From IMG/VR virus record IMGVR_UViG_3300010392_000074, positions 1 to 37,419 of that record: 37,419 nucleotides of DNA. One strand, written 5' to 3'. A program made the position numbers and the translations under genes. The DNA is from a virus. The notes beneath the pieces were generated by a model. That model saw only the letters and a program-made list of their open reading frames with translations. It was not told the origin of the DNA and made no database searches. Shown here in pieces: positions 34,789 to 36,923 of this stretch (the stretch's first letter is position 1; every line of letters begins with the position of its first letter).

Positions 34789-35142
34789 ATGGCAAGAGAC
34801 AGGCAAAGGAGCAACGCAAAGACACCGGGACACAGGGCAGCTGTGAGGCTTTACCCTACAAAAGGCAAGAAGTGCTTCGAATGCAAATCGAAAAGGGATT
34901 TGACTCGAGACCACATCGACCACGATCCCAGCAACAACAGTCCGGAAAACATCCGGATCTTGTGCAGGAAGTGCCACGGCAAAAAGGACGCCAATTATAG
35001 ATGGCGAAACCACAGCAAAACAAAGGGCTGCAAAACCTGCGGGAAGGTTTTTGAATATAAAAGGGCCAGACAAAAAACCTGCTCAAATCAATGCAGGCGA
35101 AAACTACAAGTAATAACGCTAAGGAAAGGGAAAGAGATATGA
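34789..35142 (+). CDS. HNH endonuclease
   Basis: A 117-residue protein. CFEC (29-32), DHIDHDPSNNSPENIRILCRKCH (41-63) and KKDAN form an HNH/zinc nuclease core, the acting residues being the DH pair, an N and the final H. A second CKTCGKVFEYKRARQKTCSNQC zinc finger (81-102) follows, as in homing-type HNH enzymes. It may be a free-standing homing endonuclease or help packaging; it lies far from the terminase. Confidence 0.85.
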   Translation: MARDRQRSNAKTPGHRAAVRLYPTKGKKCFECKSKRDLTRDHIDHDPSNNSPENIRILCRKCHGKKDANYRWRNHSKTKGCKTCGKVFEYKRARQKTCSNQCRRKLQVITLRKGKEI

Positions 35143-35399
35143 GGAAAGAGGCAGGGAGCGGTGCTCTGGGAAGGCTGAAAGCATCAAGGAGGAGAGGTTC
35201 AGGGGGGACAGTTGGCGCGAATTCGCTTGGGTCTCTACGGCACGCAGGGAATGCCGTAAACTCTGAGGTGAACTTCAGAAGCAAGCAGTCTCGTTGCTGT
35301 CACCAATGGCTAGAAGGTGAGGTGGCGTATGTTTGCTCGAAATGCCTGATGACCATTGACAAGGGGAACCCTTTACCAGAGAAAGGATGGCATGAATGA
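35139..35399 (+). CDS. Small basic protein with CxxC pair
   Basis: An 86-residue protein from ATG 35139, which overlaps the HNH stop and has AAGGGAAAGAG upstream; ATG 35091 is less likely. The N-terminal half is basic, glycine-rich and probably unfolded. The end has CCHQW, then CSKC, a short zinc ribbon. The last 8 bases overlap the methyltransferase gene. No family is recognised. Confidence 0.55.
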   Translation: MRKEAGSGALGRLKASRRRGSGGTVGANSLGSLRHAGNAVNSEVNFRSKQSRCCHQWLEGEVAYVCSKCLMTIDKGNPLPEKGWHE

Positions 35400-36378
35400 G
35401 CTTCATCTTTTCGCGGGTGCTGGTGGAGGAATTCTTGCAGGAAAGGCGCTCGGCTGGCGTTGTGTCTGTGCAGTGGAAAACAATCCATACCGTCAGCGCG
35501 TTCTCGTGCAGCGACAAAACGATAAAATCCTGGAGCCGTTTCCTATCTGGGACGACGTTCGAACATTTCTCGGGGCTCCATGGAGAGGTCTTGTTGACGT
35601 GGTTTCGGGAGGTTTCCCTTGCCAAGGCGTGTCAGCTGCAGGGAAAGGCGAGGGCCTTGAAGATTCCAGATCGGGATTATGGGGAGAGATGGCGAGGGTT
35701 ATTGGTGAAGTTCAACCAAGATTCGTGTTCGTGGAAAACAGCCCACTCCTTGTTTCAAGAGGAGGTCCCAGAGTCCTCTCTGATCTTGCCTCGATGGGGT
35801 ATGATGCGGTGTGGGGAGTTATGGGAGCGCATCACGTCGGTGCTCCCCACAAAAGAGACAGGATCTGGATCGTGGCGAACGCCGACCGCAAGCGACGGGC
35901 GGGGCGGGGCGTATGCAGACATGGAGAAGTTACGGAAGCGCCAGCAAGCCCACCATACAGAGCGACTTGCAGACCAGGTGAAGAATGCTCCGAGGATGTG
36001 GCCAACACCAACGAAGCACGGGAACCACAACAAAAAAGGAAGCAGTCCGCAGTCGGGAGATGGCTTGTCGACGGCAGTCAAGACCTGGCCGACGCCGAGA
36101 GCATCGGACGGGAGAAGGTCCCATGCTGGAAAAACGGACTCGACATCGATGCGGGTGAAATCGGGGCGTGGCACGCTTGGGGAGACAGTGTCCGACCAGG
36201 AGATCCGTGGAACCCTGAACCCATACTGGGTCGAGTGGCTGATGGGGTGGCCCATAGGCTTCACAGGGTTGAAGCCATTGGGGACGGACAGGTTCCAGCG
36301 GTGGCTGCAAGTATTTGGAGAATATTAAGCCAGGAGTTTAAGGCTTGCAGTGGAACAGGAAAGGAAGAGGAGATATGA
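35392..36378 (+). CDS. DNA cytosine-C5 methyltransferase
   Basis: A 328-residue enzyme from ATG 35392. LFAGAGGG (6-13) binds SAM, GGFPCQGVS has catalytic Cys77, ENSP (115-118) is motif VI, KRDRIWIVA (154-162) is motif VIII, and the C-terminal GRVADGV...IGDGQVPAVAASIW is motif IX/X. A long variable region in between should recognise the target. Motif VI reads ENS instead of the usual ENV, as in many phage enzymes. Within the variable region V/L-A-N/D-A/T recurs three times. The whole gene is overlapped by a second ORF in the +1 frame (35396-36328), which limits how it can evolve. Confidence 0.92.
   Translation: MNELHLFAGAGGGILAGKALGWRCVCAVENNPYRQRVLVQRQNDKILEPFPIWDDVRTFLGAPWRGLVDVVSGGFPCQGVSAAGKGEGLEDSRSGLWGEMARVIGEVQPRFVFVENSPLLVSRGGPRVLSDLASMGYDAVWGVMGAHHVGAPHKRDRIWIVANADRKRRAGRGVCRHGEVTEAPASPPYRATCRPGEECSEDVANTNEAREPQQKRKQSAVGRWLVDGSQDLADAESIGREKVPCWKNGLDIDAGEIGAWHAWGDSVRPGDPWNPEPILGRVADGVAHRLHRVEAIGDGQVPAVAASIWRILSQEFKACSGTGKEEEI
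35396..36328 (+). CDS. Overprinted ORF in the +1 frame of the methyltransferase (WPTP-repeat protein)
   Basis: 310 codons without a stop, starting at an ATG four bases after the methyltransferase ATG. The product shows features of a phage protein family I recognise: CSWKTA (111-116), PRWGMMRCGELWER (132-145), three W-x-T-P units (160, 202, 231) and the ending LNPYWVEWLMGWPIGFTGL (274-292). SWKTA is read from the DNA of motif VI, and WVEWLMG from the DNA of GRVADGV. Both products look conserved, so dual coding is likely. The alternative is that database entries for this frame are themselves miscalls. The function is unknown. Confidence 0.55.
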   Translation: MSFIFSRVLVEEFLQERRSAGVVSVQWKTIHTVSAFSCSDKTIKSWSRFLSGTTFEHFSGLHGEVLLTWFREVSLAKACQLQGKARALKIPDRDYGERWRGLLVKFNQDSCSWKTAHSLFQEEVPESSLILPRWGMMRCGELWERITSVLPTKETGSGSWRTPTASDGRGGAYADMEKLRKRQQAHHTERLADQVKNAPRMWPTPTKHGNHNKKGSSPQSGDGLSTAVKTWPTPRASDGRRSHAGKTDSTSMRVKSGRGTLGETVSDQEIRGTLNPYWVEWLMGWPIGFTGLKPLGTDRFQRWLQVFGEY

Positions 36379-36923
36379 ACCAAGAACATTACAATGAGAT
36401 TAAGAAAGGCGCAGAAAGAATGACACTAGAAAAAGCATTAGGTGAATATGAGCACGACGAGGAGCGAGACAAACCCATCGACGAGTTTGTAAAAGCGAAC
36501 AAAGCTGCATTCAAAAAGCAGTTGGATGTGTGGTTTTCAGAGGTTTTCGACCAGCATTACTACTGGCTGGAAGATAATGCCCCTATCGCGTTGACAGAGG
36601 AATCAGTTAGCCGCGCTAAGAAGCTGCTAACAGCAGTCTTGGAGGGCAACGAGGAAGCGGCTAAAGCGTTATTCGAATGCGATGATGAGCGACACGTTAC
36701 GATGGGGATCGACGCAGGGAAACCTTGGGCGAAAGTCGTTCACGGTCAACTCTCCATCACATCAGCTCAGAAGCTGCGGAAAGCCATTGTCGAAAAGCAC
36801 GCAGACTTACTGCGAACTAACTACATCAAAGACCTGGAGAGTCAGGTTGAAGGCATTCAGACACAGCTAAAGGAAGCGAACAAACGATTGACTGTTGCGG
36901 GTTTACAGGAGGTTTGCTGGTAG
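36375..36923 (+). CDS. Hypothetical helical protein
   Basis: A 182-residue protein from ATG 36375, overlapping the methyltransferase stop, with AGGAAGAGGAG upstream. Acidic and mostly helical, with a C-terminal coiled coil (YIKDLESQVEGIQTQLKEAN). No family is recognised. Confidence 0.6.
   Translation: MNQEHYNEIKKGAERMTLEKALGEYEHDEERDKPIDEFVKANKAAFKKQLDVWFSEVFDQHYYWLEDNAPIALTEESVSRAKKLLTAVLEGNEEAAKALFECDDERHVTMGIDAGKPWAKVVHGQLSITSAQKLRKAIVEKHADLLRTNYIKDLESQVEGIQTQLKEANKRLTVAGLQEVCW

Follow-up and report, generated by a model that had tools for sequence, protein, structure and literature searches.

Introduction

M.EcoHK31I and M.AquI, which recognize YGGCCR and CYCGRG, respectively, are both cytosine-5 methyltransferases made of two chains. 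The second chain of M.EcoHK31I is about 176 amino acids long; in 1995, Lee, Kam and Shaw reportedly placed its beta ORF within the alpha gene, in a different frame, and found that activity depends on both chains. The larger chain of M.EcoHK31I carries motifs I to VIII, motif X, and the TRD, and the smaller chain carries only motif IX; in M.AquI, motifs I to VIII are in the alpha chain and the distal variable region and motifs IX and X are in the beta chain (PMC3404938). In the annotation of Paenibacillus phage Diva, gp50 appears as a "g49 internal gene" within the DNA methyltransferase gp49. This is the same overlap as that described here, in a related methyltransferase, and gp50 matches phrog_1008 at 1.1e-73. 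Both gp49 and gp50 are named just DNA methyltransferase.

Here we describe a methyltransferase locus in the viral record IMGVR_UViG_3300010392_000074, of which the whole stretch of 37,419 nucleotides was analyzed (the window). Compared by described layout only, the locus resembles M.EcoHK31I: motifs I to VIII and X are in one predicted chain (f1) and motif IX appears to be in a second (f2), which is encoded in an overlapping frame and seems to be under selection as a protein. It differs from M.EcoHK31I in that f2 is 310 amino acids long and covers about 95% of the f1 gene, starts 4 nt after f1 with what appears to be the same ribosome-binding site, and occurs at hundreds of phage and prophage loci. 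The locus differs from M.AquI in that motif X is in f1, apart from motif IX. The M.AquI arrangement, in which the second chain has both IX and X, is seen in two phage loci (L122 and L133) and in split actinophage loci. Unlike f2, Diva gp50 starts far into the gene and not 4 nt after the methyltransferase start. Two-chain methyltransferases with motif IX in the second chain were already known, as was Diva gp50 as an internal gene. No published description of a near-complete f1/f2 overlap was found in the literature searched. Within that literature, it appears to be unreported that two starts 4 nt apart open genes that overlap almost completely, that this arrangement is conserved at hundreds of loci, that selection acts on both frames, and that a series of intermediate layouts exists.

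Results

Two long frames open from ATGs four bases apart, at 35392 (f1) and 35396 (f2), which are arranged as ATGAATGA. These frames had been noticed in a first-pass annotation, and their coordinates and lengths were confirmed from the sequence. The f1 frame (35392 to 36378) encodes a putative alpha chain of a cytosine-5 methyltransferase, 328 amino acids long, with motifs I to VIII and X and without IX. The f2 frame (35396 to 36328) is a +1-frame ORF encoding 310 amino acids, a putative beta subunit with motif IX. The f2 stop ends at 36328 and the f1 stop at 36378, so that the overlap takes in 310 of the 328 f1 codons. A Shine-Dalgarno-like AAGGA, read directly, lies at 35383 to 35387, 4 nt from the f1 ATG and 8 nt from the f2 ATG. 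The next gene (36375 to 36923) has an ATG that overlaps the f1 stop (ATGA). These features, and the motifs within f1 and f2 described below, are all on the plus strand. A small HNH endonuclease gene (PF01844) is located immediately upstream of the overlap, at 34789 to 35142. The window also contains a second DNA methyltransferase gene, at 1037 to 2326, whose N-terminal half is ParB-like (phrog_498, 1.5e-118).

The f1 protein was matched by PF00145 at 4.1e-30 over residues 3 to 168 only and by phrog_363 at 1.8e-63. A match to M.HhaI (PDB profile) was confined to motifs I to VIII and ended at residues 168 to 169. The translation has the signature of a cytosine-5 methyltransferase, with SAM-binding motif I (FAGAGGG, 35410 to 35430), the PC motif IV with the catalytic cysteine (GGFPCQ, 35608 to 35625, near-invariant in the alignment), an ENV-type motif VI (VENS), and motif VIII (HKRDRIW, 35848 to 35868); motif X (IGDGQVP, 36277 to 36297) was assigned, like motif I, from the translation and the alignment of relatives. 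The window motif X reads GDGQVP, with Asp where nearly all relatives have Asn. Neither motif IX nor the small domain was found in the f1 chain. The AF2 model of f1 has a confident catalytic domain, with a match to M.HhaI over about 168 of 327 residues, followed by a region (residues 172 to 285) mostly below pLDDT 50 with no ordered small domain and then by the motif X helices. The WPTP-type units of f2 (W160, W202, and W231; 35873 to 36097) fall in the stretch from motif VIII to motif IX, where f1 lacks conservation and is predicted to be disordered. In this model, f1 looks like half an enzyme. The first-pass annotation was therefore wrong in crediting f1 with all cytosine-5 methyltransferase motifs, since motif IX is absent from f1 and its apparent counterpart is in f2.

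The f2 protein had been assigned from its motifs to a phage protein family, and that family is real: f2 matched PHROG 1008 at 6.8e-22. It also matched three small PHROGs without known function and had a weak match to a fourth. No family in Pfam or NCBIfam was matched. PHROG 1008 is labeled "DNA methyltransferase" only, which hides both its second-frame status and its missing motifs I to VIII. This profile covers the f2 of all arrangements, and the methyltransferase profile PHROG 116 matches f1 at 211 to 377 and the split f2 chains at 409 to 495. The f2 of L122 weakly matches the C terminus of PHROG 363, the f1 family (8e-4). The f2 motif LNPxWVEWLMGWPxGW, in the window LNPYWVEWLMGWPIGFT (36215 to 36265), occupies the collinear position, 21 codons upstream of f1 motif X, and is near-invariant in f2 at a site where f1 is variable. 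Because actinophage relatives carry that motif in frame, it is, judged by sequence, motif IX; in hhalign, the window-type f2 tail aligned to the motif of the single-chain actinophage enzymes at 93% with an E value of 2.4e-7. Direct comparison of the f2 tail with E. coli Dcm in hhalign was not significant. Residues 1 to 160 of f2, which overlap motifs I to VIII, are conserved and unlike any known domain, and f2 may therefore have functions beyond the supply of motif IX. The AF2 model of f2 alone was poor (pLDDT 58.8, pTM 0.32). A Foldseek search of the PDB with this model gave no match, f2 profiles gave no credible match to PDB sequences, and a search of BFVD gave matches of low TM-score, methylases among them.

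The open state of f2 was compared with that expected by chance. Among 20,000 synonymous-codon permutations of f1, f2 was fully open in 0.055%, with about 5.4 stops expected, and it was fully open in 0.16% of draws when the codon usage of the window was applied. In every other large ORF tested in the window, the +1 run was at most 128 codons. Eighty viral loci were retrieved by similarity to f1, not f2, and the 79 with at least 200 matched codons were analyzed. In this set, which samples the clade of the f2-containing loci that seeded the retrieval profile and gives no share among all cytosine-5 methyltransferases, an open +1 frame covered at least 97.8% of f1 in every one of the 79 full-length relatives. 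Homologues that keep f1 and have stops in f2, which the first-pass annotation had named as counterevidence, were not found among these 79. The relatives contained 134 +1 stops versus 480 expected under synonymous permutation, or about 1.7 per gene, which is about the two stops that bound f2. The +2 frame had an excess of stops (1437 observed versus 1185 expected). The GC content of the relatives ranged from 46 to 64%, and the open +1 frame is therefore not a product of composition. In the E. coli Dcm control, 14 stops interrupted the +1 frame, and the longest open run was 88 codons. In a non-redundant set of 136 loci from phages, metagenomic viruses, and bacterial genomes, f2 was open across at least 90% of f1, with nine exceptions.

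An f2 ATG was present in all 126 loci scored for starts, as ATGAATGA, GTGAATGA, or TTGAATGA or with no f1 start there; this count took in loci with an ATG near the f2 start, and the fair figure is 120 of the 136 non-redundant loci with the expected ATG. The codon at the f1 start was ATG in 52 of the 126 loci, GTG in 37, TTG in 15, and a non-start codon in 22, in which f1 must begin upstream. Shine-Dalgarno spacing in the relatives peaked 8 nt before the f2 ATG, hence 4 nt before the f1 start, and the signal is better placed for f2 than for f1. The spacing peak and the conserved f2 ATG support the proposal that one ribosome-binding site may serve both starts.

The third bases of f1 codons are the second bases of f2 codons. 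At 83 conserved fourfold-degenerate f1 columns, third-base entropy was 1.19 bits versus a background of 1.86 bits and was lower than background in 80 of 83, which is the reduction in frame-1 synonymous change that had been suggested as a check. Several f1 codons are frozen (P277 as CCC in 121/121, R281 as CGA in 97/97, A287 as GCC in 116/116, and V114 as GTG in 108/108), and other third bases are at background level (A151, R155, R157, and L312). The presence of both kinds within one gene indicates that recent common ancestry is not the reason. The motif coincidences noted in the first-pass annotation were borne out, with FVENSP of f1 read as SWKTAH in f2 and GRVADGV read as WVEWLMG. VENS and SWKT share the DNA at 35731 to 35742, where the invariant G at the third base of the V114 GTN codons fixes the f2 Trp. 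Opposite the f2 motif PRWGMMRCGE (35789 to 35818), the third bases of f1 A133 and G136 are nearly invariant, and f2 P132, W134, G135, and G140 are each at least 90% conserved in 104 sequences. Third-base entropy tracked f2 residue entropy (rho 0.65), a correlation that is in part built in; it did not track f1 conservation (rho -0.23). At the motif IX site, f2 was more conserved than f1 (0.98 versus 1.23 bits), an f2 Met present in 127/127 sequences lay opposite an f1 Asp column of 1.65 bits, and third-base relative entropy was 0.13. The dN/dS-like ratios, from pairwise counts uncorrected for multiple hits, were 0.72 (NN/NS) and 0.40 (SN/SS) for f2 and 0.40 (NN/NS) and 0.22 (SN/SS) for f1. Thus, f1 third bases are constrained where f2 is conserved, in keeping with the double constraint originally proposed. 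Profile scoring of real versus synonymously permuted f2 was rejected as a test: it told the two apart in 63 of 63 genes, but so did the +2 control, and the result was not frame-specific, because any third-base constraint shapes both frames.

In phages L122 and L133, f1 stops 167 codons in, just past motif VIII, and its frame downstream of motif VIII contains 15 and 19 stops in all, respectively. Their f2 is open for 364 and 404 codons and carries motifs IX and X. The two differ by 18 substitutions, 12 of them at f2 third positions, and by a length of 120 nt, or 40 codons. With f1 dead there, the substitutions and the codon-multiple length difference indicate that f2 evolves as a protein itself. 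In the first 160 codons, f1 has 0 stops versus 6.0 and 7.6 expected and is still coding. Taken together with the frames open in 79 of 79 relatives, these patterns of selection support the dual-coding gene first proposed, and f2 is almost certainly a real protein. Three further loci (L163, L176, and L229) have a single f1 stop shortly after motif VIII, an intact f2, and a seemingly conserved f1 remainder that includes motif X; this stop may be decay, a sequencing error, or a real, perhaps three-part, split.

Four layouts were found among the relatives in a tally made by regular expressions, which left 58 loci unscored and left out Paenibacillus-type loci. In the single-chain layout (11 actinophage loci), one ORF has motif IV, LSPRFTEWMMGLPDGWVTD, and NEQLKACGNGVVPQQA, and PF00145 aligned three of four such enzymes tested to position 319 to 320 of 324, spanning motifs IX and X. 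In the split actinophage layout (20 further loci), f1 ends after motif VIII, the +1 ORF has motifs IX and X, and the two overlap by about 70 to 125 codons. The L122/L133 layout divides the motifs in the same way with full N-terminal overlap. In the window-type layout (71 f1-retrieved loci and about 139 further loci), f1 has motifs I to VIII and X and f2 has IX. Motif IX was not found in both frames of any scored locus. The stand-alone copies of the f2 protein that had been sought were not found, with a recognizable f1 in another frame at 252 of 252 loci checked, and this absence is among the outcomes that the first-pass annotation had listed as counterevidence; f2-only stretches do exist in L122, L133, and the split actinophage genes, and there f2 evolves as a protein beside a dead f1.

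Individual records showed further features. The single-chain actinophage methyltransferases L268, L270 to L274, L276, L277, L280, L282, and L284 keep a WPTP-rich +1 ORF of 201 to 426 codons (probability of being open, 0.007 to 0.11 each) in addition to their own motif IX, and a pure motif IX role fails to explain this ORF. In Arthrobacter phage Chickaboom (L008), gp41 and gp42 are annotated as separate DNA methyltransferases with a 46-base gap, and the gp42 frame stays open upstream for a long way into gp41. The record of Pseudomonas phage phPA-G (L005) lists f2 as a hypothetical protein and omits f1, the reverse of other records.

Discussion

Comparison of the sequences shows that both frames are protein-coding under selection, that motif IX is in f2 and not in f1, and that among relatives motif IX, or IX with X, can be found in either frame. 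The locus probably encodes a two-chain cytosine-5 DNA methyltransferase in two overlapping frames of one gene, with f1 as the alpha chain and f2 as the beta chain. One ribosome-binding site would feed two starts four bases apart. From these, f1 would yield the catalytic alpha chain with motifs I to VIII and X, and f2 would yield a beta chain that supplies motif IX in trans and whose WPTP-unit region probably contributes to target recognition. The two chains would associate into one active enzyme, which presumably shields phage DNA from restriction. We infer independent initiation at both ATGs, physical assembly of the chains, a need for both, and this biological role. The second overprinted gene of the first-pass annotation is retained here as a real protein, but it is best read as the missing part of the same enzyme and not as an unrelated product. 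As to its origin, we lean toward a compensating frameshift pair around motif IX that put the motif out of frame; an overlapping ORF, grown back to the gene start, would supply it in trans, with both subunits locked in one DNA and one ribosome-binding site.

A reading of f2 as a true overprinted protein that does something else, such as anti-restriction or regulation of the methyltransferase, and is no subunit of the enzyme is unlikely. A separate job would fit the conserved 160 N-terminal residues, which match no known domain, and the persistence of the open +1 WPTP ORF in single-chain actinophage enzymes with their own motif IX. However, f2 has the motif IX that f1 lacks, has motif X as well in L122, L133, and the split actinophages, and has a motif IX that sits in frame in single-chain enzymes. 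The split actinophage overlaps, with motifs I to VIII followed by IX and X in the other frame, are the layout expected of a programmed +1 frameshift that fuses f1 to f2 into one chain with I to VIII plus IX. Such a fusion is quite improbable, since window-type f2 has its own conserved ATG and a well-placed Shine-Dalgarno sequence, its constrained N-terminal part would be unused, and the window-type product would be without motif X. The conserved start of f2 and its constrained N terminus favor independent initiation over frameshifting.

The very strong third-base conservation at the motif IX site could also be produced by a constraint on DNA or RNA, such as a structure or a regulatory or packaging signal, rather than on the f2 protein. 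Yet over the full length of the gene the pattern keeps to f2 codons, stops are avoided in the +1 frame only, with more than expected in +2, and in the stretch of dead f1 the changes fall at f2 third positions and the length difference is a multiple of three; a signal of this kind is already largely excluded and has very little probability left. Conserved f1 words do force some parts of the f2 motifs, as with SWKT opposite VENS, but that the amino acid content of f1 leaves the +1 frame open by chance is scarcely credible: synonymous permutation predicts about 6 stops per gene, and the Dcm control has 14 stops in its +1 frame. The chance reading is already refuted by the stop deficit, the third-base constraint, and the L122/L133 substitution pattern.

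Near-complete same-strand overlaps across hundreds of distant dsDNA phage loci have rarely been reported, and the two products of this overlap appear to be halves of one enzyme. If the two-chain reading is true, it explains why many phage cytosine-5 methyltransferases seem incomplete, without motif IX, and why the database label "DNA methyltransferase" is found on either frame or both. Annotation pipelines that allow one ORF per locus would then lose a needed subunit, and cloned single ORFs may seem dead. With single-chain forms, forms with IX and X split off, and forms with only IX split off all in existence, how an overlapping gene is born and becomes fixed can be tested directly.
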